Origin: Rubrivirga sp. SAORIC476
GTDB lineage: Bacteria > Bacteroidota > Rhodothermia > Rhodothermales > Rubricoccaceae
Reading direction: 5' to 3'
Length of the DNA: 64,000 bases
NCBI RefSeq assembly: GCF_002283555.1
Contig: NZ_MVOI01000006.1
Span: forward strand, 452,040-516,039
The notes under the pieces are model-generated. The model had not been told where the DNA came from, searched no databases, and was given only the letters and a program-made list of their open reading frames with translations. Positions 17,192-30,135 of this stretch are shown here, in pieces. Each line of letters begins with the position of its first letter. Within the stretch, counting starts at the first letter, position 1. The translations under genes were made by a program, and so were the position numbers.

Positions 17192-17256
17192 CGTTGGGGC
17201 ACCCGAGTGCCGACCCCCCGGTCGGTATCCTGCCCGCTGCCGTCTCGTCCGCCTCG

Positions 17257-18501
17257 ATGCCCCGCCCGCCGTCCTCCGTCTCTTCTGGTCCCGATGAGCG
17301 CAGCGCTCTGTTCGGACCGCCGACGACGTTGGAGCGGGATCTCTGGGCGAGGCCGGAGTCGCGCCTCCTCCTGCTCAGCGCCCGGACGTGCCCGCCACCG
17401 CTGACCGAGGCCACCGAGGGCGTCGACTGGCCGACGTTTCGGAAGCTGGTGTTCGCGCACCGGCTCGTTCCGCATGTCGCGCGCTCGCTCAGCGAGGTGC
17501 CGACGGTCCCCTCTGCGTTCTGCCACGCGCTCCAGCAGGCCGAGGCGGACAACGCGTGGCGGCAGTTGGAGATGGCGCGGGTGCTCACCGTCGTGCTGGG
17601 GGCGCTGGGGGAGGCGGGCGTACCGGCGCTCCCGATCAAGGGGCCGGCGCTCGCCTCCTGGCTCTTCGGGGACCCCGCCCGGCGGACGAGCATCGACCTC
17701 GATGTGCTGGTCGCCCCGGATGCGCTGGCGGAGGCGTTCGCCGTCGTCGGACGGATCGGCTTCGAGAGCGGCGGCAAAGTCCGCGGCCTGACGGCCGCCG
17801 AGGCGGAGGTGGTCGCGACTGAGTTCCAGCTCAAGGACGCCGCCTTCATTCACCCCGAGTGGCGGGTGTCGCTCGAAATCCACTGGCGGCCGTTCCGCGA
17901 CCGCGGCCTGTCGACGCTCGCCGAGGGGCTCGCTGCCGACCTGCGCGTGGACACGACGGGGCTGGCGTGGCGCAACACGCGGGTGTCCGCTGCGGGCGCG
18001 GCCTTCGTGCTCGCTCACGGCGCCATGCACGGCTACCGCCGCCTGACGTGGCTCGCCGACGCCGCGGCTCTCTCCGAGCGCCTCGACGAGGCCGCCTGGG
18101 AGGAGGTCGTCGCGCTGGCCGCCGCGGACGGCTTCGAAGGGGCCGTCCTGCTGGGGCCGTACCTCGCCCACCGCCTCCTGGGCGCGCCGGTGCCCGAGGC
18201 AGTCCGCCCCCGCATCGAGGCGCACCTGCCGCGGCTGCGGCGGCTGGCGGGCTGGTGCCTCACCGAGACGCCCGACCACGAGCGCCAGATGCACCCGGCC
18301 ACGGCAGCCCTCGGGGCGGGACTCTACGACCGCTCCGGCGATCGTCTCCGCCACCTCTGGCACCTGCTCGTGAGCCCGGCCAGCGGCGAACTCGCCGAGG
18401 CCGACCTCCGCCCGGGCGCTGCCGCCCGGGCGCGGCGCATCGCCGCACGACCGGCGCGGCTCGTTCGCAACGGGGCGCGCTGGGTGACGGGGCAGCGCTA
18501 G
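17257..18501 (+). CDS. Nucleotidyltransferase family protein (PF14907-type)
   Basis: A 414-residue protein. PIKGPALASWLFGDPARRTS followed by IDLDVLV (about residues 127-153) is the nucleotidyltransferase motif of the uncharacterised PF14907 group: Lys-Gly, then Gly-Asp, Arg and an Asp-x-Asp pair that would bind metal. Further conserved features are LEIHWRPF near 207 and HGAMHGYRRLTWLADAAAL near 250. As far as I recall, such proteins are found beside lasso-peptide kinases and sulfotransferases, and a lasso operon with both lies 6 kb downstream. The start is the ATG at 17257 after a GC-rich spacer. The substrate is unknown. Confidence 0.75.
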   Translation: MPRPPSSVSSGPDERSALFGPPTTLERDLWARPESRLLLLSARTCPPPLTEATEGVDWPTFRKLVFAHRLVPHVARSLSEVPTVPSAFCHALQQAEADNAWRQLEMARVLTVVLGALGEAGVPALPIKGPALASWLFGDPARRTSIDLDVLVAPDALAEAFAVVGRIGFESGGKVRGLTAAEAEVVATEFQLKDAAFIHPEWRVSLEIHWRPFRDRGLSTLAEGLAADLRVDTTGLAWRNTRVSAAGAAFVLAHGAMHGYRRLTWLADAAALSERLDEAAWEEVVALAAADGFEGAVLLGPYLAHRLLGAPVPEAVRPRIEAHLPRLRRLAGWCLTETPDHERQMHPATAALGAGLYDRSGDRLRHLWHLLVSPASGELAEADLRPGAAARARRIAARPARLVRNGARWVTGQR

Positions 18502-18513
18502 ATCGCGCGGCGG

Positions 18514-20730
18514 TCAGGCGCCGTGGCCTTCGTGTCCGCCCATCGTGGGACGTGCAGGGGTCGCGTCGAGGGTGAGGGGGATCGGCTGCGCCGCCGTCGT
18601 GCCCTCGACCAGCCGGTAGCGCCCTCCGCGCTCGACGTCGCCGAACGTGCTCTCGGTGCCGCTCCCCGGCCACGTGACCTCCACCGCTTCGACGGTGCCG
18701 CCGCCCAGCCCGACCTCCAACTGGAGGCTGTTCGAGCCGAAGCTCCCCCCCATCCCGACCGTCCGCCAGAGCGTGCGCCGGGAGCCGTCCGAATCGAGGA
18801 CGCGGACGGCGACGCGGGCGCCGATGGCGGAGCGGTTGGCCTGTTGCCCCTCCAGCCGCAACACCACCCAGCCCCGGTCCTGCCACGGGTTGTCGAAGAG
18901 CAGGTTGGCTGCCGTGTCCGACTCGAACGCACCGCCCGCGACCACGTAGAGCTCCGGGTCGAGGTCGCCGTCTACGTCACCGAACGAGACGCCGTGCCCC
19001 TTCTGCAGGTGGCCCGTGCCCGACACGTACGTCCGGTCCACGAAGCGGCCGTCGGGGCCGCCCATCAGCAGGCGGTTGGGAACGAGCGCGGCGAAGTTGG
19101 GCGCGCCGGTCGCCGCGTACAGATCCACCCAGCCGTCACCGTCGAAGTCCTCCACGTTGACACCCATGACGGGCGCGGTGAAGCGGCCCAGCCCGGCCAC
19201 CTCGGTGACGTCGCCGAAGGAGCCGCCGAGGTTGCGGAACAGGTGGGTGGGTTCGTGGCGGGGAGGCATCCCGAGCGCCTCGCGCGCCGCGCCGCCCGCG
19301 AGCCCGTCGCCCTCCGAGAACCCTCGGCTGGGGTAGGCGAGCGCCATCAGGTCGTCGCGGCCATCCTGGTCCCAGTCGAAGGCCGCCGCCGAAAAGCTCG
19401 CCTCCGGGCCTGCGGCGACCGGCGCCGCCTCGAAGCGGACGCGGCCGTCGGTGCTGCGGTTGAGGTAGAGGCGGTTGGCCGCACTCATGACGCTGACGTA
19501 GAGGTCCGGCCGGCCGTCGGCGTCGGCGTCGGTCCAGACGGCGCCCTTGACGAAGGCATCGACGGTGAGGCCCGCCTCGCGCGCCGCGTCGCGGAAGGTG
19601 CCGTCGCGGTTGTTGAGGTACAACTCGGAGGCGTAGTGCGTGCGTCGCTCCCCGACCTCGTTGCCCACGAACAGGTCCAGCCAGCCGTCCCCGTCCACGT
19701 CGGCGAAGGCAGCCGCGCCGGTCGGGCGCTCGCTTCCGAGTCCGGCGGCGAACGTGTCGTCGGTGAAGCGGCCCTGGCCGTCGTTGCGGAGGAGCGAGTT
19801 GGGGATCTCGCCCCACTGCCGCGTCCAGGCGCCACGGAGGACGAACACGTCGAGGTCGCCGTCGTTGTCCACGTCGCCGTGGATGAGGTTGAGCCCGCCC
19901 GTGAGCCCGTCGAGGCCCGCCTCCTGCGTGCGCTCGGTGAAGTGGCCTCGGCCGTCGTTCTCGTAGTAGCGGATGGGATCGGCGAGGCCCCAGCTGGACG
20001 CGATCAGGTCCAGGTCGCCGTCGCCGTCGAAGTCGTCCAGCGCGGCGCCGCCGGAGAGCGCCATCGTGGCGACACCGCGCTCCGGGGCGACGTTCTCCAG
20101 GCGCGGGAAGCCGTCGGCGGCCCCCTCGGGCGGGACGCCGAGGCCGGGGATGCGGTACCGCGCCGGAACGCCGTCGGGGTAGTCGCCCAGGGCCTGGTGC
20201 GCGATGTTGAGCAGCCAGCGGGCGTCGAGGTCGGTCGAGTCGCGGTCGAGCAGCGTCTCGAACAGGGCGGCGGCGCGGCGCGCAGGTTCGGGGTCGGCGT
20301 GGACGGCCGCCGCGCGGAACGGCAGGATGCAGACCTCAGCGGCGTGGCCCGCGGCCAGGCAGTTGGCCTGCTCGCCGAGCCGCAGGTAGGCGACGCCGAG
20401 GCGTGAGATCTGTGCGGGCTCCCAGGCCGTGCTGTCGCCCAGGCTCAGCATGTCGATGGCCTCTTGCGTGAGTCCGCCCTGGAGCAGGCGGCTGGACCCA
20501 CGCACGATGTCGCGGAGCGTCGTTGGGGGCGGCCTGTCCATCTCCCGGAGCGCGCGTGCGCGACCGTTGGTGAAGGCGGGGGCGCCGCGGGCCTCAGCCA
20601 GCCACTCGTGCTTCTCGGCCAGCACCTCGGGCATCGACGGGGGCTCGGGCGTGCAGGCACTCCCCATCCCCAGGCCGACCAGCAGGATCGCGAGGACGCG
20701 TCGCCGCGCCCCGCCTGTCAACAACAGCAT
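18514..20730 (-). CDS. FG-GAP/VCBS repeat lipoprotein with UnbV domain
   Basis: A 738-residue secreted protein with a lipobox-like start (RRRVLAILLVGLGMGSAC). After a helical region with tetratricopeptide-like character (residues about 30-200) come many FG-GAP/VCBS calcium-binding blades: DDFDGDGDLDLIASSWG, GDVDNDGDLDVFVLRG, ADVDGDGWLDLFVGNE, DADADGRPDLYVS, EDFDGDGWVDLYAATG and GDVDGDLDPELYVVAG. The ASPIC/UnbV domain is at the C-terminus (GARVAVRVLDSDGSRRTLWRTVGMGGSFGSNS). These proteins form a surface beta-propeller. The start ATG shares one base with the stop of the permease-fusion gene (TGATG). Confidence 0.85.
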   Translation of the reverse strand: MLLLTGGARRRVLAILLVGLGMGSACTPEPPSMPEVLAEKHEWLAEARGAPAFTNGRARALREMDRPPPTTLRDIVRGSSRLLQGGLTQEAIDMLSLGDSTAWEPAQISRLGVAYLRLGEQANCLAAGHAAEVCILPFRAAAVHADPEPARRAAALFETLLDRDSTDLDARWLLNIAHQALGDYPDGVPARYRIPGLGVPPEGAADGFPRLENVAPERGVATMALSGGAALDDFDGDGDLDLIASSWGLADPIRYYENDGRGHFTERTQEAGLDGLTGGLNLIHGDVDNDGDLDVFVLRGAWTRQWGEIPNSLLRNDGQGRFTDDTFAAGLGSERPTGAAAFADVDGDGWLDLFVGNEVGERRTHYASELYLNNRDGTFRDAAREAGLTVDAFVKGAVWTDADADGRPDLYVSVMSAANRLYLNRSTDGRVRFEAAPVAAGPEASFSAAAFDWDQDGRDDLMALAYPSRGFSEGDGLAGGAAREALGMPPRHEPTHLFRNLGGSFGDVTEVAGLGRFTAPVMGVNVEDFDGDGWVDLYAATGAPNFAALVPNRLLMGGPDGRFVDRTYVSGTGHLQKGHGVSFGDVDGDLDPELYVVAGGAFESDTAANLLFDNPWQDRGWVVLRLEGQQANRSAIGARVAVRVLDSDGSRRTLWRTVGMGGSFGSNSLQLEVGLGGGTVEAVEVTWPGSGTESTFGDVERGGRYRLVEGTTAAQPIPLTLDATPARPTMGGHEGHGA

Positions 20731-23700
20731 CAGCGCGTCTCCCGGCGGACCGTGTAGCGCGCGCCGGTCGCGAACGGACCCGAGAGGACGGTCGTCTCGC
20801 CGGTCGACCAGCGGACCTCGATCGTGTCCACGGCGCTCGCGTCGCCGAGGCCGAAGTGGGCGACGGGCTCGTCGAACGACAGGAAGCCGCCCGAGGCCTG
20901 GATCTCGCGCATCTGGTGCTTGCCGTCACCGTAGCGGACGATGACGGTGGCGCCGATGCCGGTGGTCGTGCCGCCCGCATCGTCGCGGAGCACCACCTGG
21001 AGGGCGGCCCCACCCGCCTCGTTCCGGAAAACATCCACCGGGCCCATGGCGCGGGGCGTCACGAGGTCCAGGTCGCCGTCGAGGTCGAGGTCGACGGCGG
21101 TCGTGGCGTAGGTCGCCATCCACGAGCCCAGGCCGGGGACCGTCTCGGTGACGTTCTCGAAGCGGCGCCCGTCGACGTTGCGGAACAGCAGGTCACGGTC
21201 GTTGCGGCGGTTCATCATCACGCTGTTGACGACGAACAGGTCCTGCCAGCCGTCCTGGTCGAAGTCCGCGAAGCGGGTGTCCCAGGTCCAGCCCGTCCGC
21301 GTGAGGCCGGACATCTCCACCTCGTCGGTGTAGCGGAGGGCGTCGCCGTCGGCGCGGCGCAAGAGGACGTTGAGGTTGTTGCCCTTCGACGGGATCAGGG
21401 CCGCCTTGTCGGCCTCCGAGAGGGGCGCTACGCGCTGCTCGAACAGGGCGCAGTAGCGGCTCTGGAGCCGCCAGCGTCCCGCCTCGGTCAGCACGTCACA
21501 GTTGGCGCCGTTGCGACCCTTGGTCTGGGCGAGGAAGTTGGCCGCGCAGTCGGCCTGCTCGGCGGGGTCGTCGAGCTCCATGCACACGCTCGCCGACTGC
21601 TGGTCGCGGGCGCGTGTCTGGGTCAGCTGGAAGCGGTAGGCGCGCTCGCACGCCTCGCGGTCCTGCTCGGCCCGCTCGGCGCACATCACGTCCGCCGGGA
21701 GGCGTCCCGCGACCCGCGCGTTCTCCAGGTGCCCGATCTGGGCGATGAAGAGCTCGGGGCGGAGGTCGTTGTCGAGGTCCGCCGAGACGACGCTCATGGT
21801 CGTGTTGGTGCCCGTCGGGACGATGCCGTCCTGGCGCGTGACGAGCCGGAAGCCGCCCGCGCCGTCGCCGAGGTAGAACACGTCGGGGGTGCTGAAGTCG
21901 TTGCCCGCGACGAGGTCGAGGTCGCCGTCGCCGTCGAGGTCGGAGAGCAGCAACGAGAGCGTCTCGCCAGGGACGCCGGGCAGCGCCTCCATCGCGAACG
22001 CGCCGCGGCCGCCCTCGTTGAGGAGGAGCGCGTTGCGGGCTTCCTCCAGCGACGTGTCCGCCGGGTTGCCCGGTGTGCGGACGTTGGCGCCGACCACGTT
22101 GCCGACCACGATGTCGAGCGCGCCGTCGCCGTTGACGTCGCCGAAGGCGGTCGAGGTGGAGCGGAAGGCGCCCGGCAGGTTCGGCAGCACGACGTGGCCC
22201 GCCTCGGTGAACGCGCCGCCGTCGTTGTAGACGACGTGGTTGCCGCCGCCCGCCGAGGCCACGTAGAGGTCGAGCGCGCCGTCGCCGTCGAGGTCCACGA
22301 GCCCGGCGTCGGCGATGTAGAGGTCGTCGAAGGCCGGGACGGCGATCTCCTGACGCACGAACCGCTCGCCGCCGATGTTGGCCCACAGCGAGACGCCGGC
22401 CTGCGAGGTGAACACGAGGTCCGGCCAGCCGTCGCCGTGCACGTCGCCCGACGCCGCGGCGCGGTTGGTGCCGATGCCCACGAGGGCGCGGTCCACGGTC
22501 GCGTTGCTCGGCTCCGCGATGCCCAGGTCGGCGCCGTGGATGGAGGTGAAGGCCATCGTGCCGGGCTCACCGCCGCCGGTACCGGCGGTGCGGAACGCGG
22601 TCCGCTCCACGGTCACGCCGTCGGCCGACGACACGGCCGCCGAGGCGGGCGCGGCGATCAGCAGCGCGCGGACGGCGTCGGCGGAGAGGGCCTCGGTGGG
22701 GAAGGTCGCGCGCGGGGCCGGGTCGGCCGCGAGCAGCGCCGTCGCGGCGACCGTCTGCTGACGGGTCTCGTACCACGGGTTCAGCACGAGCGCCGCCACG
22801 CCCGCCATCACGCCCAGCAGCGCCACGCCCACGAACAGGCCCACGGCCGTCGGCCGGGACATCGAGTGCTGGATCTGGAGGAACGGGTACGCGCTGAACG
22901 TGCCCAGCGTCACGAACAGGACGGCCACGTAGGCCAGCGGGACGCCCGCCGCGCTCAGGATCGCGCACACGATCACGTCGAACGCGATGGGCACCGGCAG
23001 GAACGTGCCCAGCAGGGCCACGGCGGCGAGCGTCGCGATCGTCTGGATCGGGTGGGCCTTCAGCTGCAGGGCCGGCAGCCAGTTCGTCAGCGCCTCCCAC
23101 GGGAGCAGCGTCACTACGATGGCGCCGAGCAGGCCCGCGAGCAGCATCAGCGGGACCGTCGTCTTGCCGATGTACCAGAGGTTCTTGACCAGCGAGCGGA
23201 CCGTCCAGGCGATCGCCGCGCCCCACGTCGCCGGGCGCGTGTCGAAGCCCATCGCCTCGTCGAGCGCCGGGGCCGCGGGGAGATCCGGGCCGATGGTCGC
23301 GCCGTCCGGGGCGAGCACCTCGGCGGCAGGGGCGGGGCCGCGCTCCTTCCACAGCATCCGCACCAGCAGCGGGATCACGAGCAGGATGAAGCCCAGCGTG
23401 AGGCCGAGCTTCAGCGACGCCATCCAGAAGGGGAACAGCGCGAACGTCATCGACAGCACGACCACGTTGAGCGTCGGCGACGACATCAGCGTGGCCAGCG
23501 TCGTCTCGCCTCTCGCGCCGGACTGGTGGATGCCCTCGGCGATGGGCACGGCGCAGTTGACGCACACGCCCAGCGGGGCCCCCATCGCGACGCCCATCAG
23601 CGTGTTCGCCATCCCCCCCTCGAACTTGCGCTTCGACGCGAGCGGCAGCACCGTCAGCACGAGGGCGGCGAACAGCACGCCGAACGTCATCCCCTGCTTG

Positions 23701-23951
23701 TTGGTGTAGGCCCAGTTGACCGAGTTGGCGCCGATGCGCGTCAGCACCGGCGCGTCCGGGGCGACCTCCACGACGCGGTCGAAGGCGAGGCCGGTGATCT
23801 CGGCGTCGCCCGCCATCATCGCCTTGTTGTCGAGCGACGGGTACCGGGAGCCGGTCCAGAAGGCGAATGCGACGGCAGCCAGCAGGACACCGGCCAGGAC
23901 GAGACGCTTGTCGATGCCGCGCGGGGCGGCCAGCGGGGGAGCGAGCGACAT
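20730..23951 (-). CDS. Permease (ArsP/DUF318-like) fused to FG-GAP/UnbV propeller
   Basis: A 1073-residue protein in two halves. Residues about 1-470 are a polytopic permease with about ten membrane segments. The block GVAMGAPLGVCVNCAVPIAEGIHQSGA (near 150) has the Cys-x-x-Cys-Ala-x-Pro motif of ArsP/YraQ-type permeases and recurs in spirit as LLGTFLPVPIAFDVIVCAIL. Residues about 480-1073 are an extracytoplasmic FG-GAP/VCBS propeller (GDVHGDGWPDLVFTSQAG, LVDLDGDGALDLYVAS, GDVNGDGALDIVVGN, SDLDGDGDLDLVAGND, ADFDQDGWQDLFVVN, VDLDLDGDLDLVTPRA) ending in an UnbV domain. I know of no characterised protein with this fusion. The start is ATG 23951, the first before the membrane part. It is coupled to the UnbV lipoprotein by TGATG and lies 79 bases after the lasso precursor. 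Confidence 0.85.
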   Translation of the reverse strand: MSLAPPLAAPRGIDKRLVLAGVLLAAVAFAFWTGSRYPSLDNKAMMAGDAEITGLAFDRVVEVAPDAPVLTRIGANSVNWAYTNKQGMTFGVLFAALVLTVLPLASKRKFEGGMANTLMGVAMGAPLGVCVNCAVPIAEGIHQSGARGETTLATLMSSPTLNVVVLSMTFALFPFWMASLKLGLTLGFILLVIPLLVRMLWKERGPAPAAEVLAPDGATIGPDLPAAPALDEAMGFDTRPATWGAAIAWTVRSLVKNLWYIGKTTVPLMLLAGLLGAIVVTLLPWEALTNWLPALQLKAHPIQTIATLAAVALLGTFLPVPIAFDVIVCAILSAAGVPLAYVAVLFVTLGTFSAYPFLQIQHSMSRPTAVGLFVGVALLGVMAGVAALVLNPWYETRQQTVAATALLAADPAPRATFPTEALSADAVRALLIAAPASAAVSSADGVTVERTAFRTAGTGGGEPGTMAFTSIHGADLGIAEPSNATVDRALVGIGTNRAAASGDVHGDGWPDLVFTSQAGVSLWANIGGERFVRQEIAVPAFDDLYIADAGLVDLDGDGALDLYVASAGGGNHVVYNDGGAFTEAGHVVLPNLPGAFRSTSTAFGDVNGDGALDIVVGNVVGANVRTPGNPADTSLEEARNALLLNEGGRGAFAMEALPGVPGETLSLLLSDLDGDGDLDLVAGNDFSTPDVFYLGDGAGGFRLVTRQDGIVPTGTNTTMSVVSADLDNDLRPELFIAQIGHLENARVAGRLPADVMCAERAEQDREACERAYRFQLTQTRARDQQSASVCMELDDPAEQADCAANFLAQTKGRNGANCDVLTEAGRWRLQSRYCALFEQRVAPLSEADKAALIPSKGNNLNVLLRRADGDALRYTDEVEMSGLTRTGWTWDTRFADFDQDGWQDLFVVNSVMMNRRNDRDLLFRNVDGRRFENVTETVPGLGSWMATYATTAVDLDLDGDLDLVTPRAMGPVDVFRNEAGGAALQVVLRDDAGGTTTGIGATVIVRYGDGKHQMREIQASGGFLSFDEPVAHFGLGDASAVDTIEVRWSTGETTVLSGPFATGARYTVRRETR

Positions 23952-23976
23952 AGAACGCGAGAGCCAGGAAGGGAAC

Positions 23977-24006
23977 GGGCGCCGCCCCAATCTAGGAGCG
24001 GCGCCC
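23977..24006 (-). terminator. Hairpin between lasso precursor and permease fusion
   Basis: GGGCGCCGC (23977-23985) and GCGGCGCCC (23998-24006) form a perfect 9-bp stem with a 12-base loop, 24 bases after the precursor stop. It could end most transcripts after the precursor gene and so give an excess of precursor over the permease message. Confidence 0.55.
23987..23994 (-). promoter_or_regulatory. Putative -7 element for the permease fusion gene
   Basis: On the minus strand TAGATTGG, one mismatch from TAnnTTTG, lying in the loop of the hairpin and 35 bases before the ATG at 23951. Confidence 0.3.
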
Positions 24007-24030
24007 GAAATCGGACGACAGCAGACTCGC

Positions 24031-24183
24031 CTAGGAGGCGTAGCGCTGGTCGTTCGGGAAGGAGCTCTCCGAGCTGAAGTCTTGGGTGCCCGTCTCGGTC
24101 TCACCCGTCAGGTCGAGGGTGGTGAGGGCGGGAGCGGTCCAGGGCTGACGGTCGTCCTGCGGGGTGGAGTCGAGCGTGTTCAT
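24031..24183 (-). CDS. Lasso peptide precursor
   Basis: A 50-residue peptide starting MNTLDSTPQDD. The leader carries W15-T-A-P18-A-L20, matching the Tyr-x-x-Pro-x-Leu leader motif read by B1 proteins, with Trp for Tyr. Three core registers are possible: T31 (T29 then sits at -2, the usual Thr position; ring T31-E39, nine residues), G32 (ring G32-E39, eight residues) or G27 (ring to D35). E39 is the acceptor in the two better ones. The tail ends R47-Y48-A49-S50; paeninodin ends Tyr-Asp-Ser and is phosphorylated on that Ser. The start ATG overlaps the cyclase stop (ATGA), so it is translated from the same message. It is too small for many gene finders. Confidence 0.85.
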   Translation of the reverse strand: MNTLDSTPQDDRQPWTAPALTTLDLTGETETGTQDFSSESSFPNDQRYAS

Positions 24184-25973
24184 CGCGGCGGTCGGGAAAG
24201 GGGAGCGGGGGGTGATGAAAGGAAGGATACGGCTTGAAGGCCTAATGCGGTCCACCGGCCCTGGTTTTCTGCTTCAATTTTCTGCGTCCATACTGAAAGC
24301 GCTTCCTGGAGGGCCCCTATGTCGATGAGATGTGCGCGCGCGTGGGCTCCTGGCCGGGCCGCGAGGCTCGCGAACTGGGCTGCGGCCACCTCGGTGGACT
24401 GGCGGGAGGCCTCCGTCCAGGTCGGCTCCGCCTTCGAGTCGTGCAGACGGACGCGGTCGGGCACGAGCCCGGCCGTCGCTTCGCGGAGGGGCCAGCGCCG
24501 GAGCCGTCGCCGCGTGAGCCAGGCCTCTGGAGGCAGGGACAGCGCGAACGTCAGCACGCGGCGGTCGAGCAGTGGGTAGCGGTAGCGGAGGCCGAGTGGC
24601 GTCCCGACCTGCGCCCACGCGGCCGTCCTCTGCCCGAGGTGGCCGCGGTGGAGCAGCCACGCGAGGTACGCACGCGGGTCCCCGACGGGCTTAGGAAGGC
24701 TCTCGGGAAGGTCCGCGCGCCGGAGCAGGTCCGGCCGGGCGAACGTGGCGTGCTCGCCCCGAAGCGCGGCCTCGCGCATCACATCCAGCGGCGGGTGGGC
24801 CGTCAGCCGGGCGCGGCGGATCGGCGACGCCCGGTAGCGCTGGAGCGCGGCGCGGGGGTCGGCGAGCGCGAACGCGATCAGCGGCCCCCACCGGCCGGTC
24901 CGCAGCAGGTGCGGCCCCACCAGCCCGCGCCCGCTGAAGCTGATGGCCTCGTCCCCGCCCCAGCCGGAGAGCATCAGGCGGATGCCTCGCTCGGCAGCCG
25001 CGCGGCGGACGGGGGCTTCGGGCGTCCACATGGTGGTGGGCTCGCGCGTCGCATCCATCGAGAGGCCGGCCAGGGCGTCGTCGGGCGTCGGCGGGCACCA
25101 CACGACGTCCATGCCCCAGCGGTCGGCCACGGCGAGCACGCGGGCCTGGTCGGGCGCGGGCGGCGTGCCGGGCGCGGGGGCCGGGAGCCAGGAGAAGGCG
25201 GTCGGCGGCGGGAGGCTGCGGGCCGCCAGCGCCTCGGCCGCGAACGCCGCCACCGCCGTCGAGTCGATGCCCGCCGAGAGGTGGACGCCCACGGTGCCGG
25301 GCTCGGCGTCGCCGATGGCCTCGGCGGTGACCTCCCGCAGGAGCGTCCGCAGGGCCGCGCCGCACGCCTCGATGCCGCGGAAGTGGCGCACGGGCGTCGT
25401 CTCGGGTCGCCAGTAGCGCGTGGTCAGGACGCCAGTGCCGTCGGCGACGAGCCGGTGCGCGGGGGGCAGCGCCCGGATGGCGCGTAGGAAGGTCCGCCCG
25501 ACCGCGGCGGGCTTGAAGGCGGCGTCCAGCAGGGCGGCGGCGAGCGCGCCCTCGTCGAGGTCGTCCGGCACGCCGTCGGCCGCGAGCACCGCCCGCACGT
25601 CGCCGCCGATCACGAGCCCGCCGGGCGTCTCGGCGACCCCGAGCGGCTGCAGCCCGAGGCCGTCGACGGCGCCCACGACGGCCTGGCGGGCGCCGTCCCA
25701 GGCGGCGTAGGCGAACGTGCCGCCGAGGCGGTCGGGGGCGTCGTCGCCCCACGTCTGGATCGCCGCGACCACGAGCGCGTCGTCGTCGGTCCCCTCGGCC
25801 TCGGCCCCGAGGTCGGCGTGGAGGCGCGCGCGGTCGGCCAGGTCGAGGTCGGCGTAGAGCAGGTGGACGCCCGGCGTCCCGGCCCAGTCGTCGAAGCAGA
25901 CGACGGCGGCGCCCAGCGGGCCGCGCGCGGGCGCGTCGCCGGGGCGGACGGCAAGGGCATGCGGGGCGCTCAT
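24180..25973 (-). CDS. Asparagine-synthase-like lasso cyclase (C protein)
   Basis: A 597-residue protein of the McjC/LasC type, which adenylates the side chain of the ring Asp or Glu and closes the macrolactam on the core N-terminus. The N-terminal half is a glutamine-amidotransferase-like domain lacking the Cys2 nucleophile (ends around RVLADGTG); the second half is the ATP-pyrophosphatase domain with the loop GVHLSAGIDSTAVAAFAAEAL (about 225-245), GIRLMLSGWGGDEAIS (about 330-345) and RYRYPLLDRRVLTFALSLP. The Ser-Ala-Gly-Ile-Asp-Ser loop varies from the common SGGLDS. It follows the sulfotransferase gene (stop and start overlap near 25970) and ends on the precursor start. Confidence 0.88.
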   Translation of the reverse strand: MSAPHALAVRPGDAPARGPLGAAVVCFDDWAGTPGVHLLYADLDLADRARLHADLGAEAEGTDDDALVVAAIQTWGDDAPDRLGGTFAYAAWDGARQAVVGAVDGLGLQPLGVAETPGGLVIGGDVRAVLAADGVPDDLDEGALAAALLDAAFKPAAVGRTFLRAIRALPPAHRLVADGTGVLTTRYWRPETTPVRHFRGIEACGAALRTLLREVTAEAIGDAEPGTVGVHLSAGIDSTAVAAFAAEALAARSLPPPTAFSWLPAPAPGTPPAPDQARVLAVADRWGMDVVWCPPTPDDALAGLSMDATREPTTMWTPEAPVRRAAAERGIRLMLSGWGGDEAISFSGRGLVGPHLLRTGRWGPLIAFALADPRAALQRYRASPIRRARLTAHPPLDVMREAALRGEHATFARPDLLRRADLPESLPKPVGDPRAYLAWLLHRGHLGQRTAAWAQVGTPLGLRYRYPLLDRRVLTFALSLPPEAWLTRRRLRRWPLREATAGLVPDRVRLHDSKAEPTWTEASRQSTEVAAAQFASLAARPGAHARAHLIDIGALQEALSVWTQKIEAENQGRWTALGLQAVSFLSSPPAPLSRPPR

Positions 25974-26848
25974 TCCGTCGGGAGCGCGGCGACCTCGTCG
26001 ATCACGTCGCCGTAGCCGAGGCGTCGCATGACGGCCTCATGGTCAGCCACGACGCGCCGCGCCTGCTCGGGCGTCAGCTCCTCGCGCCAGGACCCCGTCT
26101 TCCCCTTGCGGAAGAACGGCGCCGTCGCACGGCCCATGTTGTGCTCCCAGAAGCCCTCGGCGGACTCCTTCTCGCGGAGTCGCTCGAAGCGCGCGGCCTC
26201 CACGGCCGCCTGGATGCGCGCCGGATCTGTGTCGACGCCGACGAAGTCGAGCACGGCGGCGAACGTGCCAGCGGTATCCGCGTGCAGGTCCTCGTAGCGG
26301 ACGACGTGGAGGTCCAGGCCCGGGGCGTCGAGCCAGGACAGGACGTGGTCGCTCCACGACCCCATCGGCTCCGGGGCGATGTAGGTGTGGCTGCGCCGCC
26401 AGGGGTTGAGGATGAAGTCCGAGTTGGCCATCCGCGCGATGGCCTTGTCGATGTCGAGGCCGAAGAAGGGCGCCGTCGAGGTGGCCACGTCGAGCGGGTT
26501 GCGGACGATGTAGACCGCCCGCCCCGCGTCGGCGGGGAAGAAGCGGTCGCCGGACGCCGTTGCGACGTTCGCGCTGTGGATCTTGCAGTAGACGACGCCG
26601 GCCCAGTCGGCCGTGTCGCGCGCGAATGCGCGGGCCGCGTCGGGCTTGTACCGGTCGATCTCGTCCATGCGGAGCATCGTCGGGTTGACGCCGATCAGGT
26701 CGTCGAGGCCGCGGATGCCGCCCGGGTGGCCGGCGTGGCCGATCCGGTTGAGGTCGAGCGCCCCGGCCTCGTCGTGCCCGGCCAGCAGTGCCCGCGTCCA
26801 GGTGTTGCCGGACTTCGGGTACGACGCGAGCCAGATGACGGCGCCCAT
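25970..26848 (-). CDS. Sulfotransferase of the lasso operon
   Basis: A 292-residue cytosolic-type sulfotransferase. MGAVIWLASYPKSGNTWTRALL places the PAPS 5'-phosphosulfate loop (YPKSGNTW) at residues 9-16 with the catalytic Lys; the 3'-phosphate block is YIVRNPLDVATSTAPFFGL near 112-130; the C-terminal FRKGKTGSWREELTPEQ is the third PAPS-binding motif (RKG..G.W...F). The set is complete, so the enzyme should be active. The start ATG overlaps the kinase stop (TGATG) and its stop overlaps the cyclase start, embedding it in the lasso operon. Tyr48 or a Ser/Thr of the core are plausible acceptors; this is inference. Confidence 0.9.
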   Translation of the reverse strand: MGAVIWLASYPKSGNTWTRALLAGHDEAGALDLNRIGHAGHPGGIRGLDDLIGVNPTMLRMDEIDRYKPDAARAFARDTADWAGVVYCKIHSANVATASGDRFFPADAGRAVYIVRNPLDVATSTAPFFGLDIDKAIARMANSDFILNPWRRSHTYIAPEPMGSWSDHVLSWLDAPGLDLHVVRYEDLHADTAGTFAAVLDFVGVDTDPARIQAAVEAARFERLREKESAEGFWEHNMGRATAPFFRKGKTGSWREELTPEQARRVVADHEAVMRRLGYGDVIDEVAALPTE

Positions 26849-27843
26849 CAGCCCGCCTCGGCGACCGCACGCGCCAGCTGGGCCTCGACGGCGTCGGCGA
26901 CTTCGCCGAGGGTCTGGGCCAGACGCGGCCGGATGACCTGGACGACGGGCACCGCGCCGGCGATCCGCATGGCCCACGCGAAGTGGGGCACCTGCAGCCC
27001 GGCGCTCTCGACGATGCGGCGGCGGTAGGTCATCTTGAGCAGCACCTTGGCGGCCGCCGGTCCCTGGAGGCGCTCTGCGACCAGCACGCCGGGGGCGTCG
27101 AGGCGGGCGTCGCCGGGGTCGTGGGCGTCGAGCGAGATCTCGTTCCAGGGCTGCAGCACCACGATCGCGCGCAGCGGCGCGGGCTCGGTCTGGAAGGCGG
27201 GCACCTCGTAGAGGTACTTCCGCGCGTCCTCCCGGAGCGGCGCCAGGTCGGACGGGGCGGTGCCCATGCGCTCGACGGCGTCCTCCCAGAGGCGCGTCGT
27301 CGGGTAGCCGGAGAGCACCATCGGCGTGCCGTCGGCGTCGAACTGGACGACCGTCTTGTCGTCGCTCAGGATGGGGTGGCCGCGGCGGGCCAGCTCCACG
27401 GCGGTCGTGCTCTTGCCCGCACCGGAGCGCCCCGCCACCACGACCGCGCCGCCCGGCCCCACGACCGCCGACGCGTGGAGCACGAACATCTGGCGCTGGT
27501 GCAGGATCGCGCCCAGCGTGGTGCCGAACAGGAAGGCCCGCACGTCGGCATCGGTGCCGCCGGTGCGCTCGATGACGACCTCCGACCCTTCCTTCTGGAC
27601 GAGGTAGCGGGCCACGCCGTGGATCTCGTGGCGCCACGCGCCCGCGCGCCCGGCCCACGTCACGCGCTCGGCCAGCGGCTCGCCGATGTCGTCCGGCACT
27701 GTCCCGAACCCGATCCGCAGGTCGGGTTCGGTGGTCGCGACCTCCTGCGGGGCGGGGCGCAACTCGGGGAGCGCCAGCGACGAGGCGACGTGGAGCCCGT
27801 ACGCGACGTAGTGGTACGCGTCGTCCTCGGCTGGAATGCTCAT
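26848..27843 (-). CDS. HPr-kinase-like lasso peptide kinase
   Basis: A 331-residue protein of the HprK/P-like group. The Walker A loop VVVAGRSGAGKSTTAVEL (about 135-152) follows LHASAVVGPGGA, and PILSDDKTVVQFDADG (about 158-175) supplies the Asp pair that binds Mg and attacks phosphate; the downstream LLKMTYRRRIVESAG is also typical. Kinases of this type in paeninodin-like clusters (PadeK, ThcoK) phosphorylate the C-terminal Ser of the precursor; the precursor here ends in Ser50. It lies one base after the B1 gene stop and overlaps the sulfotransferase start. Confidence 0.87.
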   Translation of the reverse strand: MSIPAEDDAYHYVAYGLHVASSLALPELRPAPQEVATTEPDLRIGFGTVPDDIGEPLAERVTWAGRAGAWRHEIHGVARYLVQKEGSEVVIERTGGTDADVRAFLFGTTLGAILHQRQMFVLHASAVVGPGGAVVVAGRSGAGKSTTAVELARRGHPILSDDKTVVQFDADGTPMVLSGYPTTRLWEDAVERMGTAPSDLAPLREDARKYLYEVPAFQTEPAPLRAIVVLQPWNEISLDAHDPGDARLDAPGVLVAERLQGPAAAKVLLKMTYRRRIVESAGLQVPHFAWAMRIAGAVPVVQVIRPRLAQTLGEVADAVEAQLARAVAEAG

Positions 27844-27844
27844 G

Positions 27845-28138
27845 CTAGGCGCCTGCGGGTTCGATCAGGCCGCGGGTCAGGAGGTCCGCGAGGAACGTCT
27901 GCGTGGCTCGCTCGGCCTCCTCTGGCTCGACTTCGAAGTGGACCGGCAGGTCGGCCGCGATCTGGGCGGGCGTCGTCGGCTCGGCGAGGAGGCCCCAGAT
28001 GTGCGTGCCGACGGCGTTGAGCCCGTAGTAGTGGCCCGCTTCGATGTCCATCATCACGGCGGTTCCGTTGACGTCGGCGTGCATCGCGCGCTGGGCGCGA
28101 CGCAGCGGGGCGTCGGAGGGGAGGGGAGCGTCGGACAT
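27845..28138 (-). CDS. PqqD-family lasso B1 protein (RiPP recognition element)
   Basis: A 97-residue winged-helix RRE. RAMHADVNGTAVMMDIEAGHYYGLNAVGTHIWGLL is the PqqD pattern (strands binding the leader, then helix), followed by TPAQIAADLPVHFEVEPEEAE and RDLLTRGLIE-like FLADLLTRGLIEPAG. B1 captures the leader of the precursor and presents it to the B2 protease. I use ATG 28138 (MSDAPLPSD), which sits 22 bases from a promoter-like element; a GTG at 28204 would add 22 residues of no conserved type and swallow that element. It is the first gene of the minus-strand lasso operon. Confidence 0.88.
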   Translation of the reverse strand: MSDAPLPSDAPLRRAQRAMHADVNGTAVMMDIEAGHYYGLNAVGTHIWGLLAEPTTPAQIAADLPVHFEVEPEEAERATQTFLADLLTRGLIEPAGA

Positions 28139-28159
28139 GGAGGCGAGGCGAAAGAGTGA

Positions 28160-28167
28160 GAAACTTA
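28160..28167 (-). promoter_or_regulatory. Putative promoter of the lasso operon
   Basis: On the minus strand TAAGTTTC, one mismatch from TAnnTTTG, 22 bases before the B1 ATG and inside the divergent gap between B1 and B2. Confidence 0.4.
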
Positions 28168-28255
28168 CGGCTGGAGGGGAAGCCGGGGTCTCGTGGAGGG
28201 ACACGGCACGGTCTCTTCATCCGCGCCTTCAGGGGGAGGGTCCTGGGCAGGAGGC

Positions 28256-28263
28256 TAGTTTTC
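28256..28263 (+). promoter_or_regulatory. Putative promoter of the B2 gene
   Basis: TAGTTTTC, one mismatch from TAnnTTTG, 22 bases before the GTG at 28285; the mirror image of the B1 arrangement. Confidence 0.3.
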
Positions 28264-28284
28264 CGGATCGCCTCGTCCCCACTC

Positions 28285-28737
28285 GTGCCCCGGCTCCGTC
28301 TCCTGCGCGTCCTCCGTCTGCCGCTGCCCGAACTGGGCCGCGCGGTCGAGGCCGCAGTGCTGTTCCATGCGTTCCGCGTGGTGCTGCGGGTCGTGCCGAT
28401 CCGTCGTCTGACGCCCCTGCTCGGCGAAGCGGGCGCGCCCGATGCCCCACTGGACGGCACCCACACGGCGACGGACGGGGTCCTGGCCGTTCGGCGGGCG
28501 CTCCGTCGGGCGGGGCGCAAGCACCCGGACACGTGCCTGCCGCAAGCCTTCGCCGGGCGTGTGATGCTCCACCGCCGCGGCCTGCCGTCCACGCTGTCGC
28601 TGGGGGTCCGGGACGAGGGCGACGGCGTCCTCGACTTCCATGCGTGGCTCCGCGCGGGCGGCCTGCTCATCAACTGGGGGGGCGGGCCGAGGCAGTACGC
28701 GGTGCTGGGCACCTACCACGACACGCCGGGCCGCTGA
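28285..28737 (+). CDS. Lasso peptide biosynthesis B2 protein (leader protease)
   Basis: A transglutaminase-like Cys protease of 150 residues from GTG 28285. The helical N-terminus (LRLLRVLRLPLPELGRAVEA) is followed by the catalytic Cys84 in HPDTCLPQAFAGRVMLHRRG and His119 in VLDFHAWLRAGG; the third residue, usually Asp, may be replaced by the Asn of LLINWGGG. B2 cleaves the leader once B1 has bound it. The frame is open from 28156, but that start would leave only 17 bases to the divergent B1 gene and no promoter, so the later GTG is preferred. It is transcribed away from the rest of the cluster. Confidence 0.82.
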   Translation: MPRLRLLRVLRLPLPELGRAVEAAVLFHAFRVVLRVVPIRRLTPLLGEAGAPDAPLDGTHTATDGVLAVRRALRRAGRKHPDTCLPQAFAGRVMLHRRGLPSTLSLGVRDEGDGVLDFHAWLRAGGLLINWGGGPRQYAVLGTYHDTPGR

Positions 28738-28779: not shown

Positions 28780-30135
28780 TCAGAGGCGAAGGGGCGTCGA
28801 GGGGGCGTCCTCTCCGTCCGCCGGCGGCTCCAGGTCCTCCAGCGCGCCCAGCCGTCGCAGCGGGGGCCAGATCAGCGCCGCCGCGCCGACGGTCACCAGC
28901 GTCAGCACGCCGCCGAGTGCGACGGTCGCCACGCTGCCGATCAGGCTCGCGACCACCCCCGACTCCAGCTCGCCGATCTCGTTGCTCGTCCCGATGAACA
29001 CTGCGTTGACGGCCGCCACGCGCCCCCGCATCGAGTCCGGCGTGAGCAGTTGGAGCACAGTCGAGCGGACCACCACCGACACGTTGTCCGCCGCGCCGAT
29101 GCAGAACAGTGCCATCAGCGACAGGGGGTAACTCGTGGACAGCCCGAACACGATGGTCGCCAGCCCGAAGGCCGCCACGGCGACGAGCATCGCCCGGCCC
29201 GCCTTCCGCATCGGCGGCAGCAGCGCCAGCGCGAGCCCCATCGTGATGGCGCCCAGCGACGGCATCGCCCGCATCCACCCGAAGCCCGTCGCGCCGACGC
29301 CCAGCACGTCGGTCGCGTAGACCGGCAGCAGCGCCACGGCCCCGCCGAACAGCACCGCCACCATGTCGAGCGTGATCGTGCTCAGGATCACCGGCTGGCG
29401 GCGGACGAACCGGGCGCCCTCGATCACGCTCGCCCAGGACCGCTTCTCCACCGACCGCGCCTGCGGCGTCGGGGTGATGAACAGCAGGCAGACGAACAGG
29501 ACCACGCTGGAGGCCGCGTCGGCGAGGTAGACGACGCCCGCCCCGGAGGTCGCCAGCAACACGCCGCCGGCGAGGGGGCCGAGCGTCGCCGAGAGCTGGA
29601 AGGCCACGCTCCGCCACATGGTCGCGTTGGCGAACACGCGCGTCGGCACCAGCCCGGTCACGATGGCCTGCGACGCGGGCCAGCCGATGGCGCGGAAGAT
29701 GCCGGTGCCGAGTAGGAAGGCGTACGTCAGCGGGATCGGACCGTCGGTGAACGACACCCAGGCCAGCCCCAGGCCCGACAGCGCCAGCCCGACCTGGCTG
29801 ATCAGGATGAGCGTCTTGCGCGGGTACCGGTCGGCGGCGGCGCCCGCGGGCAGCGCCAGCAGCAGCACCGGCAGCGCCAGCACGAGCCCGATCATTCCCA
29901 GGCTCAACGGCGTCTGGGTCCGCTGGTAGACCTCCCAGCCGACCGCGACGGTCCGCATCTGGTTGCCTGCCCCGGAGAACAGGCTGCCCAGCAGGTAGAG
30001 CCGGAAGCCGGGCAGGCGCAGCGACGCCAGCGGGTCGTTGCCGCCCGAGCCGCCGCTCTGGTGGACCACCTCGGCGGGGGGCTCGGGTGCCGAGGGGCGT
30101 CGCTGTTCGTCGGGTGTCTCCACGTGGCGCGCCAA
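28780..30135 (-). CDS. MFS transporter (EntS/MFS_3-like)
   Basis: A 451-residue major facilitator protein with about 12 membrane segments. Signatures: GSLFSGAGNQMRTVAVGWEVYQ in the first segment, the loop AGAAADRYPRKTLILISQV (GxxxDRxxRK, the MFS motif between segments 2 and 3) and RFVRRQPVILSTITLDMVAVLFGGAVALLPVYA, typical of MFS_3 exporters such as EntS. The N-terminal 35 residues are a Pro/Glu-rich cytoplasmic tail. It is convergent with B2; because the lasso cluster has no ABC exporter of its own, this could export the product, but no direct link is visible. Confidence 0.85.
   Translation of the reverse strand: MARHVETPDEQRRPSAPEPPAEVVHQSGGSGGNDPLASLRLPGFRLYLLGSLFSGAGNQMRTVAVGWEVYQRTQTPLSLGMIGLVLALPVLLLALPAGAAADRYPRKTLILISQVGLALSGLGLAWVSFTDGPIPLTYAFLLGTGIFRAIGWPASQAIVTGLVPTRVFANATMWRSVAFQLSATLGPLAGGVLLATSGAGVVYLADAASSVVLFVCLLFITPTPQARSVEKRSWASVIEGARFVRRQPVILSTITLDMVAVLFGGAVALLPVYATDVLGVGATGFGWMRAMPSLGAITMGLALALLPPMRKAGRAMLVAVAAFGLATIVFGLSTSYPLSLMALFCIGAADNVSVVVRSTVLQLLTPDSMRGRVAAVNAVFIGTSNEIGELESGVVASLIGSVATVALGGVLTLVTVGAAALIWPPLRRLGALEDLEPPADGEDAPSTPLRL

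Follow-up and report, generated by a model that had tools for sequence, protein, structure and literature searches.

The window analysed here, a 64,000-nucleotide stretch of the Rubrivirga sp. SAORIC476 genome (contig NZ_MVOI01000006.1, positions 452,040 to 516,039), contains a gene cluster whose assignment to lasso-peptide biosynthesis is supported by profile matches, motifs and gene junctions. Its six genes, encoding a precursor (A), a cyclase (C), a kinase (K), a sulfotransferase (ST), a B1 protein and a divergent B2 protein, lie where a sequence-only reading of the same DNA had placed them. B2 (28156..28737, plus strand, exact start uncertain) is a transglutaminase-like leader peptidase that matches NF033537 (lasso_biosyn_B2) with 67.4 bits, against a cut-off of 33, and PF13471 with 63.2 bits; it has both the Cys and the His that are present in 93 and 94, respectively, of 95 aligned rows. 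The other five genes form an operon on the minus strand, divergent from B2. B1 (27845..28138), a PqqD-like precursor recognition element, matches PF05402 with 68.9 bits and NF033536 (lasso_PqqD_Bac) with 63.4 bits, under the cut-off of 80. It is followed by K (26848..27843), an HprK-like peptide kinase (Hpr_kinase_C, 29.8 bits, under the cut-off of 33.3); ST (25970..26848), a sulfotransferase dependent on 3'-phosphoadenosine 5'-phosphosulfate (PAPS; Sulfotransfer_1, 94.4 bits); C (24180..25973), an asparagine-synthase-like macrolactam cyclase (PF00733, Asn_synthase, 88.5 bits; best NCBIfam match lass_lactam_cya, 138 bits, under the cut-off of 525); and A (24031..24183), a 50-residue precursor. 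The junctions are tight, with a gap of 1 nt between B1 and K and overlaps of 1 nt (K/ST), 4 nt (ST/C) and 4 nt (C/A), and all reading frames are intact. Because the matches to Hpr_kinase_C, lass_lactam_cya and lasso_PqqD_Bac lie under their cut-offs, the identification of the cluster leans on context and residues as well.

A related cluster in a congener (genome G178, locus L073) has the gene order B2 / B1-K-ST-permease fusion-C-A, the fusion gene being described below. The congener shares 67% identity with the window in K, 59% in ST and 45% in A, and the 20-residue cores of the two precursors align without gaps. Since the congener keeps B2, B1-K-ST and C-A, the cluster is not a chance arrangement. 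The sequence-only reading had argued, from stop/start overlaps on both sides, that ST belongs to the pathway and is no bystander; the gene is indeed embedded between K and C, and its retention in the congener bears this out.

Precursor A carries the leader motif [YW]xxPxL, as WTAPAL, a Thr at position -2 and an acidic residue (D/E) at core positions 7-9. The predicted core, with the cut site placed from Thr(-2), is TGTQDFSSESSFPNDQRYAS, with Glu9 as the ring acceptor, Tyr18 and a C-terminal Ser20. In an alignment of 11 precursors, chosen by hand from the ST group of the window together with the second precursor described below, Thr(-2) is found in 10 and Gly2 in all 11. The ring-acid column holds Glu in 10 and Asp in 1, and a Tyr precedes the final Ser in every one. 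The kinase keeps the H-K-D-D set (H123/K144/D161/D162) given as the motif of lasso precursor kinases in passages of PMC9266682 and PMC10368454; among 147 aligned K rows, the four positions are occupied by H in 137, K in 142, D in 141 and D in 135. The sulfotransferase has the motifs YPKSGNTW, RNPLDVATS and RKGKTGSW along with K89/H91, so that the PAPS-binding motifs announced by the sequence-only reading, which go by the names 5'-PSB and 3'-PB, are present together with the catalytic His. By sequence, the solved proteins nearest to it are Teg14, Teg12 and StaL, which sulfate phenols. The genome has an adenosine 5'-phosphosulfate (APS) kinase gene, and PAPS can therefore be made.

The window cyclase was placed in a tree of 58 rows (5 named cyclases and 53 picked from 102 extracted ones), built by a quick method with one long-branched AsnB row as outgroup. 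It groups with the cyclase of the congener and a paralog from its own genome (support of 100 in the SH-aLRT, the Shimodaira-Hasegawa-like approximate likelihood ratio test), next to three sphingomonad cyclases from loci with both K and ST (93). With one distant AsnB row in the tree, it clusters with cyclases that adjoin lasso genes and not with the AsnB of its genome. The annotated paeninodin-type cyclase from Priestia is placed elsewhere in the tree, and a separate 14-row group holds many other Rhodothermales cyclases. The placement inside the lasso cyclase clade is thus tentatively supported, for a quickly built tree with a single distant outgroup row.

The paralogous cyclase belongs to a second precursor-cyclase pair, which lies outside the window on the same contig, ~90 kb from the cluster (L224:8412-10529; G000:C6, about 566.4-568.5 kb). 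The pair adjoins a tRNA-Gln gene and consists of the cyclase followed by a 62-residue precursor ending in ADETGGGAAPKNNENPNFYVS (terminal NENPNFYVS). The predicted core of this precursor, GGAAPKNNENPNFYVS, has a Tyr and the terminal Ser as its sole hydroxyls. A precursor profile search of nine genomes of the family returned two matches in the window genome and one in the congener, all three of which are rows of the profile. The 20-kb stretch around the second pair yielded no B1, B2, K or ST. Genome-wide, the window copy is the only B2 and none of five sulfotransferase-family matches lies by the second pair, the search for B1 being confined to the stretch. Since no such genes were found beside it, the plain reading is that B1, B2, K and ST of the window would serve the second pair in trans. 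The same genome has, at L200:9526-12547 (G000:C3), a further pair of a kinase and an asparagine-synthase-like cyclase. This cyclase groups with those from other Rhodothermales lasso loci, and the 20-kb stretch around the pair yielded neither B1 nor B2.

The phosphorylated and sulfated product that the sequence-only reading had proposed is a straightforward prediction from the gene content. In the form that we favour, and whose chances we regard as evenly balanced, the cluster would make a doubly anionic lasso peptide, with a phosphate on the C-terminal Ser20 and a sulfate on Tyr18, and would probably serve the second precursor as well. B1 would bind the leader (WTAPAL...T); K would phosphorylate Ser20 on the linear precursor, as review passages describe for lasso kinases, which act on linear precursors at a C-terminal Ser; and ST would move sulfate from PAPS to the tail Tyr18. 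B2 would then cut after the residue that follows Thr(-2), and C would join residue 1 to Glu9 around the tail. A nucleotidyltransferase encoded further downstream could attach a group to this phosphate, in the way proposed for PsmN. The same B1/B2/K/ST set would probably act on the second precursor-cyclase pair ~90 kb away. Counted from core residue 1 with loss of one water, the predicted lasso mass is 2204.9247 for A and 2364.8478 with both modifications; for the second precursor the values are 1659.7641 and 1819.6873.

The choice of Tyr18 as the sulfate acceptor draws on a midpoint-rooted tree of 53 sulfotransferase rows. The window ST falls into a nine-row group (SH-aLRT 97) whose other members come from the congener, five sphingomonads, a Gemmatimonadetes record and a Pseudomonadales record; each of the nine candidate precursors ends in Ser and has a Tyr within the last eight residues. 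Because most described lasso kinases use the C-terminal Ser, and Tyr and C-terminal Ser are the pair common to the group, Tyr is the likeliest site of sulfation here. Across 46 scored loci with K and ST, a near-terminal Tyr occurs in 21 and changes 10 times on the tree, a number that 0 of 300 label shuffles reach (mean 15.5); where a locus had two candidate precursors (L130, L167), a Tyr in either one counted. Several observations weigh against the proposal. The Tyr labels were set by hand after the sequences had been viewed, from candidate lists that contain false positives, and the clustering on the tree may just reflect joint inheritance of the cluster. The remaining 25 of the 46 loci have no Tyr near the precursor end, so that Tyr is not the acceptor for the ST family as a whole. 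Within the nine-row group, the candidate precursor of L179 lies ~7 kb from its ST. The window core offers further hydroxyls (T1, T3, S7, S8, S10, S11), a Thr at core position 1 is unusual, and C and K score under curated cut-offs. BsfK, finally, phosphorylates Ser3 of a precursor that lacks a C-terminal Ser, according to the part of PMC10368454 consulted; kinase sites therefore vary.

The pairing of K and ST is not peculiar to the window genome, being widespread across phyla. A species-level genome collection was scanned with the three Rhodothermia ST, and the best 80 of at least 546 confirmed relatives were kept; these loci are not a sample, and their counts, to which all figures for the 80 loci refer, include probable duplicates (L138, whose cyclase is that of L039 and whose contig has the same length; L107 and L108, which look near-identical; L111 and L127, on one contig). 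K was found in 68, C in 57, B1 in 55, B2 in 37 and a nucleotidyltransferase in 37 of the 80, with K at most 600 nt upstream of ST on the same strand in 64; 11 loci hold ST alone. B1, B2 or C is present in 64 loci, and 63 of these hold K, L172 being the exception. By record title, the loci with K include Chloroflexota, Acidobacteriota, Pseudomonadota, Bacillota, Bacteroidota and Verrucomicrobiota. The sequence-only reading had implied that a kinase together with a sulfotransferase is rare, which these counts contradict, as does the appearance of such genes in print in 2014 and 2016. The reading knew of no characterised example; likewise, no characterised sulfated lasso peptide was found in a literature search limited to open-licence papers and to passages from some of those listed.

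Within the Rhodothermia, on the other hand, ST is an accessory. The survey covered 244 genomes, 57 of them with a Transglut_core3 match; 54 stretches around PF13471 matches above the family cut-off (matches under it were excluded, and two close matches in G195 share one 20-kb stretch) and the window gave 55 B2 loci. K occurs in 37 of these, C in 23, C and K together in 22, a nucleotidyltransferase in 30 and ST in 3, each of which also holds C and K; the stretches stop at contig ends, and a gene absent from one may lie further out. It is because only 3 of the 22 loci with C and K hold ST that we call it accessory. According to the sequence-only reading, its proposal would fall if homologous operons commonly lacked the sulfotransferase. 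Taken literally they do so in this class, where 19 of the 22 loci show no ST, some in stretches that stop at contig ends. The inference that ST is a bystander is nevertheless not borne out, as its accessory status in the class does not make the window ST one.

Other assignments of the sulfotransferase have to be weighed against the Tyr18 reading. The pathway could be the same and ST could sulfate a Ser or Thr of the ring or loop, for instance S/T10 or S/T11, which are common to the window and congener cores. The 25 of 46 scored candidate precursors without a near-terminal Tyr do contain Ser or Thr; the second core, a putative substrate of ST, has none except the last residue, however, and the Tyr is kept in all nine members of the window ST group. 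We consider sulfation of Ser or Thr rather unlikely. A different proposal holds that ST targets the very C-terminal Ser used by K, either competing for the hydroxyl or making a mixed phosphate-sulfate on phosphoserine. This would explain the near-absence of ST from lasso loci without K, which is seen in the presence of K in 63 of the 64 ST loci that contain a core lasso gene, and just upstream of ST in 64 of the 80, whereas K without ST is common (the 19 of 22 Rhodothermia loci above). The terminal Ser is also the commonest shared feature of the candidate precursors (40 of 52 from loci with K and ST, false positives included), and for pseudomycoidin the passages available propose that the phosphate is extended by a nucleotidyltransferase. 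Co-occurrence can equally come from shared ancestry, however, and the candidate precursors of six loci with K and ST (L105, L110, L113, L121, L123, L154) do not end in Ser. We know of no PAPS sulfotransferase that makes a phosphate-sulfate anhydride on a peptide, and on balance regard a shared Ser as unlikely.

It is less probable still that ST, or K, does not tailor the peptide at all and merely travels with the cluster, modifying for example a surface glycan or the FG-GAP protein encoded downstream. The overlaps that sandwich ST between K and C speak against such a role, as does the conservation of ST beside candidate precursors in the congener and in sphingomonad loci; what lends it some weight is that two of six Roseobacter stretches hold a relative of the permease-FG-GAP fusion and sulfotransferase genes among adhesin-like and tail-fibre-like genes, with no lasso gene listed. 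Decay or silence of the cluster, leaving it without a product, would fit the low scores of C and K on curated models. With frames intact, catalytic residues kept and a conserved ortholog in the congener, we judge it very improbable.

The boundary given earlier for the cluster may be too short, since genes extending to about position 17250 are candidate members. Directly after A, the minus strand can form a strong RNA hairpin (23952..24034; minimum free energy -41.8 kcal/mol, z -4.04, equalled by 0 of 200 shuffles), possibly an attenuator or terminator; no comparable hairpin was found in the 100 nt after the A gene of the congener (z 0.27). It is followed by a gene for a 1073-residue protein (20730..23951, minus strand) in which an ArsP_1-like permease (29.6 bits, under the cut-off of 32.3) is fused to FG-GAP repeats and a UnbV/ASPIC domain. 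A second FG-GAP/UnbV protein, identified by domain matches (18514..20730, minus strand), has a start that overlaps the stop of the fusion gene by 1 nt; its membership is uncertain, and beyond itself its matches in the searched loci are permease fusions only. Convergent with it lies an NTP_transf_5 nucleotidyltransferase gene (17254..18501, plus strand, start assumed; PF14907, 127 bits), which is also found in L073 and whose product is possibly a third tailoring enzyme. Both the nucleotidyltransferase and the permease-FG-GAP neighbour had been overlooked by the sequence-only reading, as had the second precursor-cyclase pair, which lies outside the window. A major facilitator superfamily (MFS) gene at 28780-30135 was considered as a dedicated exporter and rejected: its orthologs (79% and 85% identity) occur in G176, which has no B2 match, and in G180, ~0.4 Mb from the B2 locus of that genome. 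No ATP-binding cassette (ABC) transporter was found among the window genes examined.

The permease-FG-GAP fusion is probably a partner of the cluster. In L073 it lies inside the operon, between ST and C, and full-length relatives (33-37% identity) stand beside the ST loci of four sphingomonads (L155, L159, L160, L176) and one Saprospiraceae record (L148); in L073 and L148 the gene is directly 3' of ST. Among the 244 Rhodothermia genomes, 10 match the permease part, at full length in the window genome and the congener only, the other eight matches being partial, with 24-32% identity. A search of 395 genomes of the phylum with the permease part of the Saprospiraceae protein gave 3 matches, at full length in the window genome only, the other two being frames of ~390 residues. 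A census of FG-GAP open reading frames, whose pattern was loosened after a stricter version had missed the window's own proteins, found them in 6 of the 80 ST loci and in 2 of the 3 ST loci from the Rhodothermia; of 52 other B2 loci, 1 had such a frame, and of 24 extra loci, none. By homology, five of the six FG-GAP-bearing ST loci have full fusion relatives; the FG-GAP frames of L131 and L083 do not qualify. That the fusion is exclusive to lasso clusters had to be rejected, as nine plasmid records match the permease part, eight of them from Rhodobacterales and annotated as FG-GAP-like. The six Roseobacter plasmid stretches that were opened (L227-L232) list no lasso gene in the PLSDB gene tables, which are incomplete, and their fusion relatives adjoin immunoglobulin-like or adhesin-like, tail-fibre, polysaccharide or type II secretion genes. 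With relatives beside several ST loci and also on Roseobacter plasmids, the fusion is a recurrent and not an exclusive lasso partner. Roles in export, sensing or immunity are guesses.

The surveys also yielded observations on neighbouring types of loci. In the Rhodothermia, K and a nucleotidyltransferase occur without C in 12 of the 55 B2 loci, and B1-K-B2-nucleotidyltransferase loci with no cyclase in the stretch include L062, L064, L067, L077 and L079. In two genomes with such loci, G168 and G172, a pair of K and C lies elsewhere (L211 and L210, respectively), which makes split clusters likely. One candidate precursor of L039, on the opposite strand (7469-7645), ends in Ser and lacks a Tyr near its end. 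At L134, L173 and L184, related sulfotransferase genes stand in tandem, and profile searches found no lasso gene there.

The window holds an intact lasso cluster of a widespread kind with K and ST, of which none is characterised in the literature searched. What is new here is the permease-FG-GAP fusion beside such loci, the second precursor-cyclase pair and the pattern of Tyr and C-terminal Ser in the window ST group. The pair of K and ST recurs beside lasso genes in many phyla, and the value of this genome as a sharp test case comes from the second core with its two hydroxyls, the Tyr and the terminal Ser, from the likely trans arrangement and from the permease-FG-GAP neighbour. If both hydroxyls were modified, there would be a sulfated class of lasso peptides and a defined sulfotransferase to use as a tool. 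The recurrent fusion is a candidate for the export or uptake of such products, or for immunity to them. A wider proposal, tentative and in our view doubtful, is that of a widespread lasso class whose tails bear acidic marks stacked two or three deep: sulfotyrosine, (poly)phosphoserine and a group added by the nucleotidyltransferase. A single maturation island would act in trans on a precursor-cyclase pair elsewhere in the genome, and the permease, fused to an integrin-like FG-GAP propeller, would move or sense the charged product.

Gene content of this kind has been noted before. HPr kinase and sulfotransferase genes were found in some lasso clusters, with an unclear role, as a passage of PMC4289311 (2014) states, and Zhu et al. 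2016, as cited in a passage of the review PMC8498205, reported that some Firmicute lasso clusters begin with a putative sulfotransferase gene. These genome-mined clusters are like the window in that HPr kinase and sulfotransferase genes were reported for some of them; in the passages available they come from anaerobes or Firmicutes, whereas the window pair belongs to the Rhodothermia and has a permease-FG-GAP neighbour. A table in PMC10040529 gives adjacent numbers, in Pontixanthobacter and Allopontixanthobacter, to clusters of B2, a nucleotidyltransferase, two sulfotransferases, PqqD and asparagine synthase. Pseudomycoidin (PsmK/PsmN) and bsf (BsfK/BsfN) resemble the window in combining a kinase and a nucleotidyltransferase with a lasso precursor. 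An FG-GAP gene also borders bsf, where it is presumed uninvolved (PMC10368454, in the part consulted); this was the sole paper combining FG-GAP and lasso in the literature search. The two systems differ from the window in that no ST appears in the bsf text consulted (PMC10368454) or in the pseudomycoidin passages, and in the action of BsfK on Ser3.

Paeninodin-type clusters (A, C, K, B1, B2 and an ABC transporter, as on a Priestia plasmid, L221) share with the window the W..P.L leader, the C-terminal Ser, the HprK-like kinase, the split B1/B2 and the cyclase. Compared with them, the window adds ST, shows no ABC transporter among the genes examined and has a cyclase from elsewhere in the tree; its precursor matched no family in the profile scan, NF033524 (the paeninodin model) included, on which the Priestia precursor scores 57.7 bits. 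The solved relatives of ST, Teg12, Teg14 and StaL, modify non-ribosomal glycopeptides. The sphingomonad loci with K and ST (L155, L159, L160, L176, L182) are like the window in having an ST of the same group, precursors ending in FYxxS, sister cyclases (L155, L160 and L176 in the tree) and, in four of the five, an adjacent permease-FG-GAP fusion; they differ from it in their shorter predicted cores and in the fusion gene, which lies on the opposite strand and further away.

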